A stretch of DNA of 64,000 bases, taken from contig CALVWJ010000013.1 in NCBI GenBank assembly GCA_944366945.1, forward strand, positions 1 to 64,000, in the 5' to 3' direction. Positions 7,150-62,583 of the stretch are shown here, piece after piece. Made by a program: the position numbers and the translations under genes. The notes beneath the pieces are model-generated. The model was not told the DNA's origin. It saw only the letters and a program-made list of their open reading frames with translations, and did not search any database. The stretch is from an uncultured Clostridia bacterium. GTDB taxonomy: Bacteria > Bacillota > Clostridia > Christensenellales > CAG-138. Positions within the stretch are counted from its first letter, which is position 1. Each line of letters starts with the position of its first letter.

Positions 7150-7189
7150 AATGCGTGGAAATAGAATATCGTTTCATAGCGTGGCAGTA

Positions 7190-7350
7190 AAGTGTTTGAT
7201 CGCTTGATCGGCTCTTTTAATAGGGAATACGGTGCAAATCCGTAACAGCCCCCGCTACTGTAATACGGACGGCCGCAGCTGCATGCCACTGGGTCCTTAC
7301 CTGGGAAGGCTTTGCGTGCCGGATGATGTTAAGTCAGGAGACCTGCTGCC
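7190..7350 (+). promoter_or_regulatory. Cobalamin riboswitch
   Basis: Several conserved blocks of the adenosylcobalamin aptamer occur in order: GGGAATACGGTGCAAATCCG from 7222, CAGCCCCCGCTACTGTAA from 7244, GCCACTG with CTGGGAAGGC from about 7285 to 7311, and the B12 box AAGTCAGGAGACCTGC at 7331-7346. The downstream 240 bases before btuF would be the expression platform; I could not settle its exact terminator or sequestrator hairpin by eye. Binding of cobalamin normally lowers expression of the genes that follow, here importer plus biosynthesis. Confidence 0.95.
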
Positions 7351-7591
7351 TTGCTTTGCAATCACTTTCGGTGGGAAAGTAAGAAACAGTTGCTGCTTGA
7401 ACGCTTTTTGCGCTTTTTACCGACAGTGGAAACAATTCCCTGTCGATTTTTTTATAAAGAGCTTCAATTCTGCAAAATGCTTTCCCTTTATGCTGAACGG
7501 CGTGCGTGCCTTCGGGAGAACCATGCTGCATATGATTGGTGAACGAGCGGGTTTTCCAAACACATGGAGTAGAAAGGGGAAAGAATCGGCC

Positions 7592-52196: not shown

Positions 52197-52220
52197 AGCG
52201 CCATAAGGTGCTTTTTATAT
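52197..52220 (+). terminator. Short terminator upstream of the CnaB surface protein gene
   Basis: Stem GCGCC / GGTGC with an ATAA loop followed by TTTTTAT. It separates parB/small-protein transcription from the surface protein gene. Weak stem, so confidence is moderate. Confidence 0.5.
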
Positions 52221-52249
52221 ACACAAAATACTATTTGGAGGCAATCAAC

Positions 52250-55200
52250 ATGACAACCAAACGCATCATGGCGTTGCTTATGTGTCTGCTGACCATCACC
52301 GGGCTAATACCCGGCGCAGCCTTTGCAGCGCAAAGCACCGTCACCATCGAATCCCAGACCAACAGCGCCTTTGACTATCTGGAATATTACAAAGACGGAG
52401 CATGGAAAGACCTAAACACGCCCCGCCATTGGATCGAGCAGACCGGCGAGGTTGTCTACTGTGTGGAACACGCGGCGGACAACCCCCATGGCGACACCTA
52501 CACAGCAACCTTACCCTCGTCCGTCTTTTCGGCCAGTACCCTCTCGGGATTGAACTCCATTCTCATGTACGGCTACCCCAACAACCGTCCCTCCGGTTTC
52601 ACCGATGACGAAGCGCGGCAGGCCACCGCCAATGCCATCCGTTTCTGGCTATCGGAACAAGGCGAAGTCGAATCCTACAGTTTTACCAACCGAAAAACCA
52701 ATCCTAACGCCATCCGAGCCAAGAAGGGATATGAACACGTCCTGGAATACGCCGACGAGCTGCTGGCAAAGGCCCGGGCAAGGCAGGAGCTACCCCACAG
52801 TATTGACTTCTCACCCTCCACTGTGCAGCTTACCGCAAGCGGCAGTAACTTTTCCGGGCAGGTTTCTGTGCGGCTTACAAACATCAACAGCGGGTATACC
52901 CTCGATACTTCTGCTCTGCCTGCAGGCGCGAGTGTGTCCGGATATACTGGTAGCAGGAGTGAAACGCTGACTGTTACCGTCCCTGCATCTGCAGCAGGAC
53001 GGAGCTTTTCCATCTCTGCCGAGGGCAAGGACACGAGAAGCGTGGATAACATCACGGCGTATATTCCCGCAAATGGTAGCTTGCAAAAAGTTTTCCTTTG
53101 CGCAACCACTGCACAGGTCGTTGCAACCGCCACCTTCAACGTGGGGGTTCCCGCTTACGGTAAGGTGCAGGTGGTCAAGACCGATGAGAGTAGTACGGCG
53201 CTTGCGGGCGTAAAGTTCGGTGTTTACTCCGATTCCGACTGTAAGAACAAGATGGAAGAGGTTACCACGGGCGAGGACGGCATGGGGATCTCCGGCGATA
53301 TTCCCGTAGGTACGGTGTATTTGAAAGAACTTTCCACCGTAAGCCCGTATATCATCTCTGCGGAGGTCAAAAGCGCGACAATCACCGCGAATACCGTGAC
53401 AAAGGTTCCATTCACCAATGTGGCGGCAAAGGGTAAAATCCGCATTGAAAAGGTTGGCAATGTGCTTACGAGCAGCAAGTCTGAGGAAACCGAGCACGGC
53501 AATGTCACCGTTCCCTCCTATACACAGAAAGGGCTGAAAGGTGTTGTATATGAGGTTAGGGACAGCGTGGGCAAGGTTGTGGCAACACTGACCACCAATG
53601 ACTCCGGCATTGCTGAGACGGAGCTGCTGCCGCTTGGCAGCTATGCTGTGCAGGAAAAGAGCGCGCCTGCGGCGTATGTCGTGGACGAGACAATCCATGA
53701 AGTGACGCTTGCTTACAGGGATCAGAATACGCCCGTCGTGACCGCTACCGTCAAGGCAGATAACGGGCTTCGCACAGGCGGCGTAAAAATTCGTAAGCTC
53801 ACTCAAGACTTTGATCTTGAAAAGCTCAACTTCTACAACAAACTTGCGGAGGGCTATGTGTTCGGGCTTTACACCGCTGAAGACATTGGCGATGTCCCCG
53901 CTGATGTGCTCCTCGAGGTGCTGACTACGGACGCTCAAGGCGTTGCCCAGACCACCGTAGCACTTCCTTACGGCAATTATTATCTTAAAGAGCTTGCCGT
54001 TCCTTTGGAAACCATTGAAATGCAGACGGACAAGCTGCCGCTGATCATCGACAGTGAACTGAACGTGCAGCATTACGACAGCCCTATCTACAACAACATG
54101 TTTAAGGCGAAAATCGGCGTATATAAGCTGGATGCAGCTGACAGAGAGCGCGGACTTGCGGGCGCGGTATTCGAGGTGCGGGATGTTTCCGGCAGGCTGT
54201 TTGATACCATTACAACCAATGAGGACGGCTATGCGGAAACCATCGATATGCCCGTAGGTGCCTACAAGGTAAAGGAAGTCGTGCCACCTGCGGGCTTTAT
54301 TCTCTCCAATGAGGTCAAGACCGTGACGCTCACTACCGAGGACAAGGAAACAGCCGTGTTTGAGCGGATGAACAAAGCGAACGAGGTCGTGCTGACAAAG
54401 ACCGACTTCACAACAGGAAAGCCCGTATCTGGGGCGACCGTGGAAATTTACGATAAAGAGGGCAAGCTGTTTTACGAAGACGTGACGGATGAAAACGGAA
54501 AAATCACCGTAAAAGAACTTCCTGCCGGGGCGTATACCTTTAGGGAAACGATCTCTCCTAACGGCTATGCCGTTAATGCCAATACCTTCTCCTTTGAGAT
54601 GGACACATACGGCAAGGTGACGGGAACAACGGCATTTACGAACGAGCCCATCACGCTGACCGTCAAGAAGATGGATAGCTTTTCGGGCAAACCCATGGCG
54701 GATATTCCCTTTACCTTGAAGGACAGCGCAGGAAATACCGTAAAGACCAGGATGACCGATCAAGGATACCGCATTGCGGCCGTGGATGGTGAGGAAACCT
54801 TTCAAGTGGATGATAATGGTTATGCGGAGTTCCGTTATCTGAAAACGGGCAAATACACCCTCGTTGAAACCGTTCCAACGGGCTATATTGCGGAGGATAG
54901 CGTTCCTTTCGAACTTACTTCATCCCATTCCATCAGTGAACCCTTTGAACTCACCGTGAACAACTGCCCTACGGGAGTAAAGATCATTAAGCTGGACGCA
55001 TCTACGAATCAGCCTCTTTCGGATGCGGGTTTTCGTATTAAGGTCAAGGACGGAACGGACTTTGCAACGCTATCCTTCACTAAACAGGAGGACGGAAAGT
55101 ATTTCTTTGATGGGAACGGCAAAGAAACGGATCTGATGGTAGACAAGAATGGTGAGGTGGTCATACTCGGATTGCCTATGGGCGCTGTATGGATCGAAGA

Positions 55201-55432
55201 ATCCGTCGTGCCGAAGGGATATTTCCCTGTTACTGCCCGAAAAGCGGAAGTCACAAAGGAGGCCTCAGCGTTGTCGCCCATAGTAATCAAAGTGCCAAAC
55301 AGTAAGAGCGTCAAGTTGGGGCTGGATAACGACTGGTGGGAAATCCCTGCCATGATCGCGAGTACGGCGATGCTGCTTTGCGGGGCGGCATTTTTCATTA
55401 TCAAACGCAAAAAGAAAAGATTGGAGAATTAA
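52250..55432 (+). CDS. Multi-repeat CnaB/SpaA-type surface protein
   Basis: A 1060-residue exported protein. Signal peptide RIMALLMCLLTITGLIPGAAFA. Residues about 25-150 resemble a thioester domain (VVYCVEHA cysteine), but at the place of the expected TQxA motif the residues are ATANAIRFW, so the thioester Gln may be missing. Seven CnaB-like repeats follow (for example KVQVVKTDESSTALAGVKFG, KIGVYKLDAADRERGLAGAV, EVVLTKTDFTTGKPVSGATV), each with YxxxExxxP-type ends that form internal isopeptide bonds. The C-terminus is a membrane span (IPAMIASTAMLLCGAAFFII) and basic tail; no LPxTG sortase motif is seen. GGAGGC precedes the ATG. Likely a cell-surface adhesin or mating-related protein. Confidence 0.85.
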   Translation: MTTKRIMALLMCLLTITGLIPGAAFAAQSTVTIESQTNSAFDYLEYYKDGAWKDLNTPRHWIEQTGEVVYCVEHAADNPHGDTYTATLPSSVFSASTLSGLNSILMYGYPNNRPSGFTDDEARQATANAIRFWLSEQGEVESYSFTNRKTNPNAIRAKKGYEHVLEYADELLAKARARQELPHSIDFSPSTVQLTASGSNFSGQVSVRLTNINSGYTLDTSALPAGASVSGYTGSRSETLTVTVPASAAGRSFSISAEGKDTRSVDNITAYIPANGSLQKVFLCATTAQVVATATFNVGVPAYGKVQVVKTDESSTALAGVKFGVYSDSDCKNKMEEVTTGEDGMGISGDIPVGTVYLKELSTVSPYIISAEVKSATITANTVTKVPFTNVAAKGKIRIEKVGNVLTSSKSEETEHGNVTVPSYTQKGLKGVVYEVRDSVGKVVATLTTNDSGIAETELLPLGSYAVQEKSAPAAYVVDETIHEVTLAYRDQNTPVVTATVKADNGLRTGGVKIRKLTQDFDLEKLNFYNKLAEGYVFGLYTAEDIGDVPADVLLEVLTTDAQGVAQTTVALPYGNYYLKELAVPLETIEMQTDKLPLIIDSELNVQHYDSPIYNNMFKAKIGVYKLDAADRERGLAGAVFEVRDVSGRLFDTITTNEDGYAETIDMPVGAYKVKEVVPPAGFILSNEVKTVTLTTEDKETAVFERMNKANEVVLTKTDFTTGKPVSGATVEIYDKEGKLFYEDVTDENGKITVKELPAGAYTFRETISPNGYAVNANTFSFEMDTYGKVTGTTAFTNEPITLTVKKMDSFSGKPMADIPFTLKDSAGNTVKTRMTDQGYRIAAVDGEETFQVDDNGYAEFRYLKTGKYTLVETVPTGYIAEDSVPFELTSSHSISEPFELTVNNCPTGVKIIKLDASTNQPLSDAGFRIKVKDGTDFATLSFTKQEDGKYFFDGNGKETDLMVDKNGEVVILGLPMGAVWIEESVVPKGYFPVTARKAEVTKEASALSPIVIKVPNSKSVKLGLDNDWWEIPAMIASTAMLLCGAAFFIIKRKKKRLEN

Positions 55433-55634: not shown

Positions 55635-55799
55635 ATGGTAAAGAGCGAAAAAATCACGAAACAAATTGCCGGGACAATGGATACCGAGGGTATGCGGCTT
55701 AATAATAAGGAGCTTACTCCGATACGAGAATGTGCCAGCGGCAAAAAATCATCATCGGTCGCAATTAAAGAGATTGTGAATCAATACCCCGTAAAGTAG
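55635..55799 (+). CDS. VbhA-like Fic antitoxin
   Basis: A 54-residue protein with the Fic-inhibitory motif [S/T]xxxE[G/N], here TMDTEG at residues 14-19, followed by LNNKELTPIRECASGK and AIKEIVNQY as in VbhA family antitoxins. GAGGTGCG lies upstream. It immediately precedes a broken fic gene. It was not obvious as a gene by length alone; the motif and position decide it. It would block the ATP-binding site of its Fic partner. Confidence 0.6.
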   Translation: MVKSEKITKQIAGTMDTEGMRLNNKELTPIRECASGKKSSSVAIKEIVNQYPVK

Positions 55800-55812
55800 G
55801 TGGTGTTTTGTC

Positions 55813-56310
55813 CGACTTGAGGCGGAAAGAAGTATAACGGCTCTGCGGATATTGGAGCTGAAACAATCCTTTCCTAATGGCAAGCTGGATTTTTCTTACT
55901 TTAAGCACTTGCATTTTCATATTTTCCAAGACATATACGAGTGGGCAGGCAAACCGCGTACTGTCAATATTTCGAAAGGCAGCCAGTTTTGTTTGTGTCA
56001 GTTTATAGACGATTAGGCGATTAAGCTGTTTCACATGCTTGAAAGGGAAAACTATATTATGTGGACTGGAAATATAGCGGAAAGGCTTTCATTTTGCCTG
56101 CCTAAATTGAATGCAATTCACCCATTTAGAGAGGGCAATGGCAGAACGCAACGCATGTTTATAGAAATACTTGCAGACAGAGCCGGATATGAAGTGAATT
56201 TTTCCGAAGTTACTGCTGAAAAAATGATAGAAGCAAGGCATCAGTCTTTTAACAAGAATTATGAACCTATGAACGTTATCATGCGGCGTATTACAACACC
56301 AAAGGCATAG
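55813..56310 (+). pseudogene. Fic-domain toxin, disrupted
   Basis: One reading frame shows a Fic protein: LEAERSITALRILELKQSFP, HFHIFQDIYEWAGKPRTVNI (the flap region) and, after an in-frame TAG at 56014, ENYIMWTGNIAERLSFCLPK followed by the Fic motif HPFREGNGRTQR (about 56123). The normal start and the first roughly 20 residues are absent. Fic enzymes transfer AMP to target proteins. The catalytic core sequence survives, so inactivation is by the stop and the lost 5' end. The antitoxin next to it is intact. Confidence 0.75.
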
Positions 56311-56414: not shown

Positions 56415-56579
56415 ATGGCGGATAAACTGATAAATACCATCATAGAACGGTTTACCATAGGCGAACAGGGCTTTGCGCTTGCACATGTTCGGATGGCACA
56501 CCAAAGCCGCAGATCCAAGCAGCTATGATGAGAATGGACAACCGAAGCTCGTGGAAAAGTGCGACGGATTGGAACGATA
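56415..56579 (+). pseudogene. Small element gene, probably frameshifted
   Basis: A frame from the ATG at 56415 reads MADKLINTIIERFTIGEQGF and ALAHVR, then becomes Ser/Arg/Gln-rich and stops at 56525. In another frame the next bases read GWHTKAADPSSYDENGQPKL and VEKCDGLER before a stop at 56579, which also looks coding. One indel near 56490 would join them. I do not recognise a family; the call rests on frame quality only. Confidence 0.4.
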
Positions 56580-56585
56580 ATATGG

Positions 56586-56591
56586 TATAAT
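56586..56591 (+). promoter_or_regulatory. Promoter -10 element for the HEPN gene
   Basis: TATAAT at 56586-56591 with a TGG just upstream, in an AT-rich stretch 27 bases before the ATG at 56618. A clear -35 was not found at 17 bases; an extended -10 may be used. CTGGAGAG serves as ribosome site. Confidence 0.55.
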
Positions 56592-56617
56592 ACTAAAAAC
56601 TACCCTGGAGAGTACAC

Positions 56618-57997
56618 ATGAAACCAAATCGTATTATTTATGGGAAACTTAGAATCAAAGACACCGTATATCCATTCTTCATGCAAGACCAATTAGTAAC
56701 TATTACGCAAACGCCTTACGAACATAATAACGATTTTTCTGATCTTACAGTCGTAGAAAAGATTGTTGGCTTAACGAACGGAAATAAGATTATTGCGCTT
56801 ATGAATTGCCGTTTTCCAAACCATCCATGGAGAGTTCTATGCTCAAGTATAACGTTTTCGGTTTCTTGGTTCGTTGAATATGATACAGAGGAACAATCTT
56901 TTGATAAAATATGCTTTAAATCAACTGCCCTAAACGCCTTTTTCCCAACTGTCCGAGCAATAGACGGCAGTTCGTTTGATAATCAAGCTGCTGCAGATGG
57001 TTCATACAGGTTCAGCATAAGGCCTATTAAAGATCGGACACGAAAATTCGTAAGTACTATTGGCGATGATAGTGTCACCGTGTTATTGACTGTAGCGTGG
57101 AGCATCAGTGCGAGACTTGAAGATCCTCAAATCGGTCAGAAATTTACGGAATGTAGCTTTATATTTGATTCCGAAAGAAATGCTGACTGCTTAGGAAAGT
57201 ATTATTTATGGCTTTATAATTTTTTGGTATTTGTAACGTTCCGTCAATGTGTCGATATTGATGAAGTTGATTTGCTGAAAAATGATAGCAGTGGGAGAAA
57301 CCATAAGATAGGCTCTGCATATTTTTTCGCACCTTACCGAGGTTTTGTGGCGGATGCTCGAAAAACAATCACCTTTGAAGATATAGGAGAAGATAGGGTT
57401 GGAACGCTATTTTCAAATGTAGCAATGCGCAGGAATGACCATCGGTTTAATCCACTTTATATACCTGAGAATGATGAAGATGCTAGAACTGTTGACATCG
57501 TAAAATGGATTAGCGCGGCGCTCGCCTTTGAAGGGGAATTTAATGCAAACTATCCAAACTATAAATACCAAAGCGATGAAGACTTCCGAAATGCAAAAAA
57601 TAAACTTATGGAAACTATCGAAGAGCAGATCAAACTTTCCGGTAGGGGCAAAAATAACAAAGTCAATTCCGGGTATAAGCGTTTTAGAGATTTAATTGAT
57701 AAGGCAGATACAACTTTAGAAGAAAAAATCATTTTCATGTTCGACCAGTACGCAACTGTTATCGACGCTGTACAGCAACGATATATGGAGGCCAATAATG
57801 TGGAGGCTACTAATAGAGAGCTTGCATTCAGATGGGCAGCGTATCGAAACAGTATTGCGCATGGCTCGTTAGAGCCGATTAAAGGAATGGACATTGTTAA
57901 CTATGCTATTACTAAAATGTTTATTTATGTATTGGTGTTAGAATCATCGGGCATTAGCAAAGAAGCACAACAGTCAATAATTGAAAAGATGTTTTGA
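56618..57997 (+). CDS. HEPN-domain protein, candidate abortive-infection factor
   Basis: A 459-residue cytoplasmic protein. The first about 270 residues form a beta-rich domain of no clear family, reminiscent of the N-terminal domain of ApeA-type defence proteins. The C-terminal about 170 residues are helical and end with the HEPN ribonuclease motif RNSIAH (R410 to H415) inside RWAAYRNSIAHG, the R-x4-H signature of HEPN RNases. The gene is much more AT-rich than the element genes on either side, has its own -10 box, and interrupts the module between the Fic remnant and the helicase gene, so it looks like acquired cargo. By motif it could cleave RNA on phage infection. Defence is an inference. 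Confidence 0.7.
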   Translation: MKPNRIIYGKLRIKDTVYPFFMQDQLVTITQTPYEHNNDFSDLTVVEKIVGLTNGNKIIALMNCRFPNHPWRVLCSSITFSVSWFVEYDTEEQSFDKICFKSTALNAFFPTVRAIDGSSFDNQAAADGSYRFSIRPIKDRTRKFVSTIGDDSVTVLLTVAWSISARLEDPQIGQKFTECSFIFDSERNADCLGKYYLWLYNFLVFVTFRQCVDIDEVDLLKNDSSGRNHKIGSAYFFAPYRGFVADARKTITFEDIGEDRVGTLFSNVAMRRNDHRFNPLYIPENDEDARTVDIVKWISAALAFEGEFNANYPNYKYQSDEDFRNAKNKLMETIEEQIKLSGRGKNNKVNSGYKRFRDLIDKADTTLEEKIIFMFDQYATVIDAVQQRYMEANNVEATNRELAFRWAAYRNSIAHGSLEPIKGMDIVNYAITKMFIYVLVLESSGISKEAQQSIIEKMF

Positions 57998-58072
57998 TTG
58001 GCAATTAGGATAGTGTACTTAGCAGCTTCGGCTGCTTTTTCTCTTGCCAAAAATCAAAGAAGGAGGGTCAGA

Positions 58073-61000
58073 ATGGCAACAAGACTGCAAGTTATATCCG
58101 AGCTTGCGGCGCAGGCGATGGAACAGCTCACGCGGTCCGTTGACAGCTGGAGGAGCTTTCTCAACTCCGCCGCATGGCTTTATAAGTACCCGTTCCATGA
58201 ACAGGTCTTGATCTATGCCCAGAGACCGGATGCAAAAGCCTGTGCTCCCATCGAGCTTTGGAACAGTAGATTTAAGCGTTGGGTGAACAGGGGCGCAAGG
58301 GGCATCGCGCTAATCGATGATAGCGGGCAGAAGCCCGCACTGCGGTATGTATTCGATGTTTCTGACACCAACACCCGCTACGATATTCCCTTCCGGCTCT
58401 GGCAGGCAAAGCCTGAATACGAGATTCAGATTATTGAGGAGTTGGAGAATCAATTCGGAGAAACGGGCACTGATGGCTCGGATCTCACTACTACCGTGCT
58501 GGGCATATCTATTAATGTCGTATCAGACAACTACCGCGATTATTATGAGGAGCTTCTCAAAACGGCAGATGACAGCGCACTTGCTGATTTGAGTAAAGAG
58601 GAGATAAGCGCTACCTTTATGCTTCAGCTAATGACCAGCGTTTCCCATACAGTCCTGGTGCGTCTGGGCATCGATCCAGCCGAAGTATTTCACGACGATG
58701 AATACGAGGGCATAACGCTGTTCAACTCGCCGGATACCATAGCCCAATTTGGCGCGGCGACCAGCGACATTTCAGAAATGATCCTGCGGCAGATAGAACA
58801 GAGCGTCAGAAACAGGGAACGGCAGGAGCGCGGCACGCTTGCAAACGTAGAGCTGGTATTGCAGAATAAAGACAGAAACAGCGAAAGGGGCGATGAATAT
58901 GGAACTCAGCTACAGGCAGAGTGGGGACTACTTGATTCCCAATATCAAAATGGACGATCAGCCGGCGGGAATGATCGGGAAATACGGGAGAATGCGGAAG
59001 ACGTTTCTAAAGGAGCAGCGGAGCGGGACTTACAACTCCCTGCTGCTTCAGAACAGGCTGACAGAGCATCTGTTGGAGATCGACAGGACGGCACGGGAAC
59101 AGGTCGAACAGATCGTGGAACGCATGGCGAAAGCCGAGGGCGTGACAGAGGAACTGAAAGCTCGCGATCAGATGAAATGGGTGGGGCTGATGAACAATCT
59201 GCTGCACACGGCGGAGGAGATCGTTCTCCAAGAGGTGATCTACAGCTAACCCCGCGCTTTCCCACAGAAAAAGAACAGCTTTCCCTTCTTGAACAGGCGG
59301 AGGACGAAATATCCTCCGTCTTTTCTGTCTCTCAAGCGGATTTTGATAACGAATTGTGCTCAGGGAGTGGGATTTTTCATGGCAAGTATCGTATCTATGC
59401 TTTCTATCAAACGCAGCCGAGCAAAGAGAGCGCCATTCAATTTTTGAAAAAAGAATACGGAATCGGTGGTCATTCCCATACCTATCTGGACGGCAGCAGC
59501 GGTTTTGTTGGTCACGACGGAAAAGGGATTGAGTTTTCGGATAGTGGATTTCATCATAAAAAGCTGTTTCGGTGGAACGCCGTACACTCCCGCCTTTCAG
59601 AACTGATTGCACTTGACCGTTACTTGTCCGAAAAAGAAAAGGCAGATTTGCCCGCTTATGAACAGGAAGAAGCGCAGCGCCGTACTGTCATGCGCGAGGA
59701 AGCAGCAGCACGGGAAGCCTTGCAGTCTGCCGCCGCTGCCATGGACGAGAAGCGCAAAGACGCGCAATACCGCTATTCCCTTGGCGACGAAGTGCAGCTT
59801 GGCACACAAAGTTATACCGTACTCGGATACGACGAGAATATCGTCACGCTATCCGACCCGAAATACCCCCTGCTGTCGGAGAATATACCGCGGGACGTGT
59901 TCGAGCGTCGTTTGCGGGAAAATCCACAGAACGACCATCTGATCGTGGAAAGCGGCGAAGCTGCCCGGGAAAGTCAAGAAGGCGCTCCCCAATATCAAGT
60001 GGTGGTCTATCATCATATCGAAAATGGTTTTGATGAAAAACTGGAGTATGCGACGCTTGAAGAAGCGAATCATGTGGCGCAGGGCTATGTGGACGGCACG
60101 ATGGAACCGGACGGTTTTGCCTACGATGGCGCGGCTGTCTATGACTTGCAGGAGCACCGGTATCTCAGCATTTTCGGAAAGTACCCGGACGAAGAAGCAC
60201 AGGAACAGGTAAAAGCGCAGGACGAATCCCCATATATCTATGACGTGGGCGACGTCGTATATATCGACGATATCGCGTTTCGCATTACAGAAATACGGGA
60301 ATCTTCGGTAGAGCTTTTAGACCCCACGCTTGTCTATCCCATTTTCCGCGCTGAGAACAGAGATACCTTCCATCATCTCTTAGAGCAGGACGAGCGCAAC
60401 GCATCGTACCTGCCTTCCATGACCCATCGAACCGTTACAGAGGCAAATGTAAGAGAGGATGTTCCCGCGGAGCGTTCAGAACAGCCGTTTGCGATTGAAC
60501 CCACAGCTTTTTACCCCGCCGAAAGGAACAAGATTCCTGTTGATATTGAAGTTAGAAAACTGAAGCCGGTGGCTGAGCAGGAAAAACCAATCAAACACGA
60601 TTTCCATATCACGGACGACAACCTCGGTCACGGCGGCGCAAAAGCCAAGTTCCGCATGAACATGGACGCCATCAACACCTTGCAGACCATTGAACTGGAA
60701 AACCGCCTTGCCACCCTTGAGGAACAGGAGGTTTTATCCCGCTATGTGGGCTGGGGCGGCATTCCCCAGGCCTTTGAAGAAGGAAATGACGCGTGGGCGT
60801 CTGAGTTTGCGGAGCTATACACAGCGCTATCCCCAGAAGAATACGAAGCAGCAAGAGCTTCCACGCTCAACGCGCATTATACCAGTCCCACGGTCATCAA
60901 GGCGATTTACAGGTGCATTGAGAATATGGGCTTCACCACGGGCAATGTGCTGGAGCCGTCCTGCGGGATCGGCAATTTCTTTGGCTTACTGCCCGAAAGC

Positions 61001-61223
61001 ATGAAGAACAGTAAGCTCTACGGTGTGGAACTCGACCCCATCACGGGCAGAATCGCAAGGCAGCTTTATCAGACGGCAAACATTGCAATTGAAGGTTTTG
61101 AAAAAACCAGCCTGCCCGACAGCTTTTTCGATATCGCCATCGGCAATGTTCCGTTCGGAGATTATGGCGTCGCAGACAAACGATATGACAAACACCACTT
61201 CCTGATCCACGATTATTTCTTTG
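58073..61223 (+). CDS. Element helicase/N6-methylase fusion, exon 1
   Basis: The first about 1050 residues of the very large protein of Tn1549-like elements, cut by a group II intron at 61223/61224. It starts MATRLQVISELAAQAMEQLT after AAGGAGGG. N-terminal part: LNSAAWLYKYPFHEQVLIYA and WVNRGARGIALID. A charged, Gly/Arg/Asp-rich linker lies at about residues 290-400. The C-terminal section carries a methylase core: VLSRYVGWGGIPQAF, VLEPSCGIGNFFGLLP (SAM motif) and IAIGNVPFGDYGV (NPPF-like catalytic motif). The reading frame ends 17 bases into the intron if unspliced. The linker overlaps tnpV in another frame. Role: DNA processing or protection during transfer. Confidence 0.85.
58899..59249 (+). 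CDS. TnpV-like protein in an alternative frame of the helicase gene
   Basis: A 116-residue frame starting MELSYRQSGDYLIPNIKMDD, continuing MIGKYGRMRKTFLKEQRSGT and VTEELKARDQMKWVGLMNNL, and ending EEIVLQEVIYS, which matches the TnpV proteins of Firmicute transposons well. It lies wholly inside the helicase gene in the +1 frame, over the stretch where the helicase product is a low-complexity charged linker. AAAGGGG lies upstream. So two proteins are encoded by the same bases, or one frame is a relic. TnpV has no proven function. Both frames read well. Confidence 0.65.
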   Translation: MELSYRQSGDYLIPNIKMDDQPAGMIGKYGRMRKTFLKEQRSGTYNSLLLQNRLTEHLLEIDRTAREQVEQIVERMAKAEGVTEELKARDQMKWVGLMNNLLHTAEEIVLQEVIYS

Positions 61224-62583
61224 GTGCGACTCGTTCCTAAGTGAAAAGCTTAGGTGCAAATTTGAAAGTGAGGTGAGACAGAATATTTGCAAACTAACAA
61301 TTCGATTGGTGGAATGATGGAGTAACGCCCTGAAACGCCAACCTTAATACTCCGACTGGCTCTGCTCAAAAAGCAGATGTTCAGAAGCTCGGTGAAGTCG
61401 GCAGAGAGCTACCGTCTTACAGTCATGAAAACAACTGTAACGAAAGCTGTCCAGAGGTGGATGGTGTAGCCTATATGCCGGAGGTCTACAAAGTATCTAT
61501 GGTGAGAATGACTGTAAAAGGTCTGACGAATCCTCGAATGTAAGGGTCTATAAGTAGGCTGTATAGAAATGTGCAGTTATCCAAACGGATAGTATGTGGG
61601 GAAAAGTAAGAATCGAAGATATGAAATTCCCTATGCCGTAACAGGCGGTATCAAGCATACAGGCTCAGAGAGGACACCTACGGGTATATGTACAGATAGA
61701 ATTGTTGGAACGAGGAAAGCAGAAAGGCTAACCAAAGGTTAGTTAGCGCAGGAAATCATAACTGCGTGAGTTTTCTGTGAGAGCGATGGCACGACCGTTG
61801 ATGTTCCTGTAATGGGAACGGAGGAACAGCCATTAGCCGTTTATGATTTTCAAATAATAACAAAGTAAACATTCACAGCTTCGAGTATGACAAAGAAAAT
61901 CAAATCCGAAAGGAGGAGATGCCTGTGACAACTACGAAGCAGAAAAAGAACTCAAAAATACGCCATTTGGAGTATTATGACTTGCAAAATATGTTAAGCA
62001 CAAAAATCCAATGTGGAAGAAAAAATCGGTATGCAAATACACGCCAGAGGGCAGACGAGAAATTCATAAAAATCTTGGCATAGAGACCAGAACAATGCTT
62101 CTCCTTATGAGAGCAAAGGAAGTTGGTCGAAGTGTTGAGTATATGGACAACCGAATTTCTCTCTATGTGGCACAGTATGGGAAATGTGCAATTACAGGGC
62201 AAATACTGGAATTACACGAAATTCATTGTCACCACAAAAAGCCTGTCAGTCAAGGTGGAAACGATAGATACGAAAACTTGATTATTTTGCACAAGGATAT
62301 ACACCGATTGCTACACGCAACAAAAGAAGAAACAATCAAGGCTTACCTCTCACAACTACAGCTCACCTACAAACAGAAGACGAAGCTGAACAAGCTACGC
62401 CAACTGGCAAATATGCAAGCCATCTAATATTAAAATGAGTTTCTTTACTGCTCGAAAATTGTAAGTTTACTTTAGTTAATACCGAATCATAAACGGTGGA
62501 ACGCCGTGTGCGGTGAAAGTCGCACGCACGGTGTGGAGCGGGGGAAAATCCGAAGATAACTTCAAAGGATTACCTATCGCTAT
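61224..62583 (+). mobile_element. Group II intron with deleted reverse transcriptase
   Basis: The 5' end GTGCGAC matches the group II GUGYG consensus right after TTTCTTTG of the helicase exon. Domain V is seen as the stem GCCGTGTGCG with GTGAAAGT loop region and CGCACGCACGG (about 62503-62532), followed by a domain VI-like hairpin and an AT end at 62583. Joining 61223 to 62584 restores the helicase frame as DYFF-A-KTLDKVRPGG, which fixes the boundaries. Length 1360 bases. It encodes only the ends of the intron protein (see separate entry), so it cannot move by itself and would need help from another copy or splice unaided. Confidence 0.85.
61919..62427 (+). pseudogene. ltrA: Group II intron-encoded protein, internally deleted
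   Basis: The N-terminus (MPVTTTKQKKNSKIRHLEYY, DLQNM, from 61919) is the usual start of this protein, preceded by AGGAGG. After about 25 codons it jumps to the C-terminal part in another frame: NPMWKKKSVCKYTPEGRREI then YGKCAITGQILELHEIHCHH and NLIILHKDIHRLLHATKEE, which is the DNA-binding/HNH endonuclease tail (residues from 62011 on). The whole reverse transcriptase and most of the maturase domain is missing. The tail frame from 62011 is intact with an HNH motif, but has no good start of its own. Confidence 0.8.

Follow-up and report, generated by a model that had tools for sequence, protein, structure and literature searches.

A likely far-diverged ApeA-type HEPN gene among conjugative-element genes of an uncultured Clostridia bacterium

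Why should an intact, AT-rich gene with a HEPN motif lie among the genes of a conjugative-type element? The question is raised by the window analysed here, a stretch of 64,000 nucleotides from an uncultured Clostridia bacterium (contig CALVWJ010000013.1). Its element, which we take to be of the Tn1549 type, has genes for ParA, ParB, a SpaA-domain protein and a large protein, presumably of the helicase/methylase type. Between the upstream SpaA-domain surface protein gene (52208..55432, + strand, assigned by Pfam) and the large downstream gene (58073..61240, + strand, from the ORF list and an intron match) lies a 459-codon ORF at 56618..57997 (+ strand), without internal stops in the ORF list and translation. 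An earlier note, made from the sequence alone, had described a 459-residue gene with the motif RNSIAH at R410, and both the intact ORF and residues 410-415 are confirmed. The gene is real, well preserved and cargo-like, likely for defence, and of a known kind.

The gene was also said to have its own -10 box, and an extended -10 box (TGGTATAAT) can be read directly at 56583..56591 (+ strand). The TATAAT box begins at position 56586, where the earlier note began the gene; that position thus marks the -10 box rather than the start of the ORF. A plausible ribosome-binding-site-like GGAGAG, likewise read directly, precedes the ATG by 5 nt (56607..56612, + strand), and a hairpin scan places a terminator-like hairpin, then a T run, at 58021..58036 (+ strand). 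The promoter scan returned 11 sites against 7.2 +/- 2.8 expected and omits the box at 56583-56591 from its list, and terminator-like hairpins are no commoner than in shuffles (2 against 2.3). Because neither scan clearly exceeds shuffles and the promoter scan passes over the box, we treat box and hairpin as direct readings only.

Base composition had been described as unlike that of the flanking genes, and so it is. GC and GC3 are 37.9% and 33.9% in the gene, compared with 48.8% and 57.6% in ParA, 50.9% and 59.5% in ParB, 51.9% and 61.0% in SpaA, and 51.4% and 54.1% in the downstream gene, that is, 37.9% GC against 49-52% in its neighbours. When all window positions are counted, its AT-richness is equalled in 4 of 1044 sliding windows of its size. 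The 1.2 kb upstream is also AT-rich (GC 42.4%) and includes the Fic remnant that the earlier note had placed beside the gene. This remnant (56035..56310, + strand) comes from the C-terminal end of a VbhT-like Fic gene that is broken, with an in-frame stop at 56014; it matches Pfam Fic at 34.2 bits (cut-off 24) and NCBIfam VbhT at 62.3 bits, far under the cut-off of 800.

Several further features were observed. Within 55635-56310, the Fic piece is preceded by a small ORF with no Pfam match that we assume to be VbhA-like, and a related Fic ORF of 229 aa occurs elsewhere (L039 958-1647). A small, presumably TnpW-like ORF at 56415-56528 is apparently frameshifted. The large downstream gene contains, wholly within it and in another frame, a 118-aa ORF (58893-59249, + strand) that we take to be TnpV-like. 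The two form an overlapping gene pair, of which four other loci (L040, L041, L042 and L043) keep both frames, with 53-57% identity in the TnpV frame. The large gene is split by two group II introns, one at 61289-62583 of the window and one beyond it (L048 4453-7160, contig 64453-67160), on a contig that stops at 67,998. All that the first retains is a 138-aa ORF matching HNH, and the second carries a 627-aa ORF, by eye of the reverse-transcriptase type, that might serve both introns. Far upstream, at 7168-7364, there is a cobalamin riboswitch (116.5 bits).

To what family does the protein belong? The window protein passes no Pfam cut-off and no NCBIfam cut-off: its match to Pfam HEPN_Apea is sub-threshold (17.8 bits, cut-off 24.4), it has no ApeA_NTD1 match, and PADLOC gives it a weak line for CARF-HEPN (E 0.04) and nothing more. 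Clusters numbered 3 in a protein search and 11 in a profile search, with its own cluster, which represents 25 member sequences on 37 contigs, counted in each. Precomputed annotation places ApeA_NTD1 in 4 of the 11 profile-search clusters (P0002-P0005). The ApeA_NTD1 cut-off of 25.5 bits is passed by P0002 (28.2 bits), which is 61% identical to the window protein over its full length, by P0003 (29.3), and by the relatives at L007 (29.1) and L044 (25.9), while the distant relative L046 passes HEPN_Apea at 24.8 bits. For three of six relatives scanned (L045, L047 and L008), no family reached E<=0.01. The N-terminal domain had seemed unfamiliar enough to suggest a new subtype; because relatives pass the ApeA_NTD1 cut-off, we read it as a diverged ApeA rather than as a new domain.

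The branch was examined through 15 aligned proteins chosen by their similarity to the window protein, namely the window protein itself, P0002-P0011 and L044-L047. At E<=0.1, HEPN_Apea is matched by 11 of the 15, ApeA_NTD1 by 8 and the next family by 4. Five residues, E305, R410, N411, H415 and G416, are invariant in all 15, beyond chance. The motif R410-N-S-I-A-H415 (57845..57862, + strand) thus keeps its R, N and H throughout the homologues, as does the acidic E305 (57530..57532, + strand). These results uphold the claim of an ApeA-type HEPN C-terminus. In known HEPN domains the motif is located at a helix end and a further conserved acidic residue is present, and the RNase action is metal-independent, leaving 2',3'-cyclic phosphate ends (PMC3710099, in part).

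Structure prediction agrees with a two-part protein. An AlphaFold2 model (pLDDT 79.3, pTM 0.78) is rich in beta strands from the N-terminus to about residue 236, apart from a single long helix at 189-207, and is helical from about residue 253. The last turns of helix 399-414 hold R410, with H415 just behind, a placement like that described for HEPN motifs. We therefore divide the protein into a mostly beta-strand N-terminal region (residues 1-287, 56618..57478, + strand), called ApeA_NTD1-like from the predicted strands and from relatives' Pfam matches rather than its own, and a helical HEPN region (residues 288-459, 57479..57994, + strand), assigned from the sub-threshold Pfam match and predicted helices. 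A model of the HEPN part alone is poor (pLDDT 62.6). Structure prediction, proposed earlier as a check, thus bears out the strand-rich and helical halves, but fold searches with the whole model and with the HEPN-domain model recognised no HEPN structure among the matches listed.

How far does this branch stand from typical ApeA? We compared its 15-member alignment, profile against profile, with 29 typical ApeA proteins (28 of 120 listed, plus L050). The global score is 32.3, against 3.7 +/- 2.3 in 40 column shuffles, none of which scored as high, with a probability of 71%. The local score for the whole protein does not rise above column shuffles (1/40 as high, probability 0.8%); by part, 4 of 40 shuffles score as high for the N-terminal part and 0 of 40 for the HEPN part. 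An 11-row alignment gave probabilities of 0.2 to 1.3% against a single typical ApeA or all 29, and 99.5% for the distant relative L046. At the sequence level, hmmsearch between branch and typical ApeA was not above decoys in either direction. The branch is best described as far-diverged ApeA, and the window gene's protein is likely to be one; we use this label because relatives pass Pfam cut-offs and the profiles are globally similar, and not on account of strong direct similarity.

The branch is missed by at least one current defence catalogue. PADLOC's Cas13-ApeA models matched none of 11 branch proteins (the window protein, P0001-P0003, P0007, P0010, P0011 and L044-L047) and both of two control ApeA proteins, L049 and L050, which come from genomes of the same host family and score 73.8 and 66.9 bits against ApeA_NTD1. 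Such a match reflects the reach of one model library and does not define ApeA. In another genome of the host family, a typical ApeA gene adjoins a TnpV-like ORF and a type I restriction gene (L075 8270-13948).

We think it probable that the gene encodes a far-diverged ApeA acting as a single-protein abortive-infection system, in which the beta-rich N-terminus would sense phage infection and the HEPN part is predicted to cut RNA. Two sources count ApeA among anti-phage systems (PMC10952713 and PMC7699616, both in part).

The distribution of the gene is in keeping with cargo. There is a single copy in its own genome, which is the only one of five listed genus genomes to have it, and relatives occur in 3 of 101 kin genomes; across the 396 genomes of the order the count is again 3, and both counts include the window genome. 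Occurrence is patchy, and by its distribution the gene is not a housekeeping one. ApeA_NTD1 was found in 3 of 151 genomes, the window genome not among them, and HEPN_Apea at E<=0.001 in 11 of 396 and 13 of 250 genomes, with 8 and 11 above the cut-off. The phages, plasmids and viral contigs searched gave no match.

In Enterocloster alcoholdehydrogenati, the relaxase gene and the NikA/MobC gene of a conjugative-type element are separated by a 36%-identical relative on the opposite strand (L007; GC 36.0%, flanks 57%), and NikA/MobC is followed by DarA_C, CD1107-like, NlpC/P60 and TraG-type genes. The relaxase label comes from annotated plasmid records (1209 matches), and in 8 of the 10 matches listed relaxase and mobC adjoin with no gap. 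A sibling element in the same Enterocloster genome (L055), with flanks 78-89% identical in DNA, has no copy of the ApeA gene of L007; its corresponding gap holds a DUF5699 gene along with a gene for another HEPN_Apea protein, of 311 aa. This one homologue, at L007, therefore occupies a variable cargo position. Two elements related to that of the window, L040 and L041, are alignable on both flanks, and there the gap between the SpaA and helicase genes holds DUF3846-type genes and other small ORFs; a homologue at the same spot, which the earlier note had proposed to look for, is absent from both. That note's idea of a toxin/defence hot spot has some support at the relaxase-mobC gap, in two related elements of one genome, but is not supported at the window's own gap, nor by 12 further HEPN_Apea loci, where no transfer genes were found.

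Three distant relatives keep other company. One (L044) lies inside a type I R-M operon, another (L045) adjoins the HsdR gene of a second such operon in the same genome, and the third (L047) is beside a type III R-M system, near AbiTii. None of the queried R-M or transfer genes was found at the L046 and L008 loci. The mobile cargo status proposed for the window gene is supported by its position as an AT-rich stand-alone unit, by gap content that varies among related elements, and by its patchy occurrence.

Could such cargo serve the element in some other way? It might encode an addiction-module toxin that retains the element, held in check by an antitoxin (a small gene or RNA nearby) until loss of the element releases HEPN activity. 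The small ORF upstream, VbhA-like by our assumption and without a Pfam match, and the broken Fic piece would suit such a module. HEPN toxins with antitoxins are known (PMC3710099 and PMC5512222, both in part), and toxin-antitoxin genes are often associated with the genes of such elements (PMC5512222, in part). However, the ORFs at 55.4-58.1 kb include none recognised as a HEPN antitoxin, the gene comes with a promoter-like box and a terminator-like hairpin of its own, and the ORF lists of L007, L008 and L044-L047 contain, by eye, no common partner gene. We consider an addiction module unlikely.

Alternatively, the protein may defend against competing mobile DNA, such as conjugative elements and plasmids, rather than phages, with breakdown of foreign DNA as the trigger. 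Its place among conjugative-type element genes is consistent with this, as are the different HEPN_Apea-type genes that the Enterocloster siblings hold in the same gap. Since ApeA is listed as anti-phage in the two sources cited above, such a role seems quite improbable.

A functionless passenger, decaying like the adjacent Fic gene, would fit the broken Fic neighbour, the apparent frameshift in the ORF that we presume to be TnpW-like and the 2 stops in one relative (L009), but the 459 codons are intact, every invariant residue is present and the gene's own cluster has 25 member sequences on 37 contigs, so we regard this as very unlikely. Some HEPN proteins process RNA, yet a chromosomal RNA-processing gene of the species is scarcely credible for an AT-rich gene in a variable gap that occurs in one of five listed genus genomes and 3 of 101 kin genomes (window genome included in both).

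If the protein is an ApeA-type abortive-infection system, as we favour, its action might proceed as follows. The protein would dimerise, and its N-terminal domain would bind a small ligand derived from infection, possibly released as phage or host nucleases degrade DNA; the title of a 2026 preprint reportedly names deoxydinucleotides for ApeA. Bound ligand would open the HEPN active site, and host RNA would be cut, the new ends carrying 2',3'-cyclic phosphates. Translation would cease and phage yield would drop, allowing the conjugative element to survive in sister cells. The RNA is likely to be tRNA, since tRNA anticodon stem loops are a frequent target of defence-system HEPN RNases, according to a part of one cited paper.

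We speculate, tentatively and with more doubt than conviction, that conjugative elements of the Tn1549 type have fixed gaps between genes that serve as slots for exchanging HEPN immunity genes of the ApeA type, and that the branch forms a separate ApeA subtype, specific for a ligand of its own and unseen by current defence catalogues. If so, conjugative elements of Clostridia-type bacteria both carry ApeA-type immunity and exchange it, and this branch escapes at least one defence catalogue. The branch would also provide compact ApeA proteins, unusually constant in their RN-x3-HG active site, for probing the ligand of the N-terminal sensor. Among the titles and abstract openings searched, a literature outside which subscription papers and preprints mostly fall, none dealt with ApeA in conjugative elements. 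One paper found, PMC5512222, mentions both Tn1549-like elements and HEPN, though not together, and the word ApeA does not occur in it.

Among named systems, the PrrC/RloC anticodon nucleases and the HEPN toxins of toxin-antitoxin pairs share the predicted HEPN RNase chemistry (PMC3710099, in part). Unlike PrrC/RloC, the window protein matched no ABC ATPase domain, and unlike the paired toxins, it has no recognised antitoxin gene beside it. A further comparison is with other HEPN_Apea proteins of about 300 aa, such as that of L055 (4103-5038, 311 aa). It passes HEPN_Apea at 27.7 bits and fills the relaxase-mobC gap that in L007 holds a relative of the window protein, but it is shorter, has the motif R-V-R-I-M-H and lacks an ApeA_NTD1 match. 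ApeA itself is a single-gene anti-phage protein that joins ApeA_NTD1 (PF18862) to HEPN_Apea (PF18739). As described, a largely beta-stranded N-terminal domain of about 300 aa is joined to HEPN, and in epsilonproteobacteria ApeA has been found embedded in R-M operons (PMC3710099, in part). The window protein differs in lying below both Pfam cut-offs, and its branch in having no PADLOC Cas13-ApeA matches and in the constant R-N and A/T-H-G around its motif. It nonetheless shares the two-part layout of ApeA, and its branch resembles ApeA in its length of about 450-475 aa, its predicted mostly beta N-terminus, its R-x4-H HEPN motif near the C-terminus and, in distant relatives of the window protein, its links to R-M operons.
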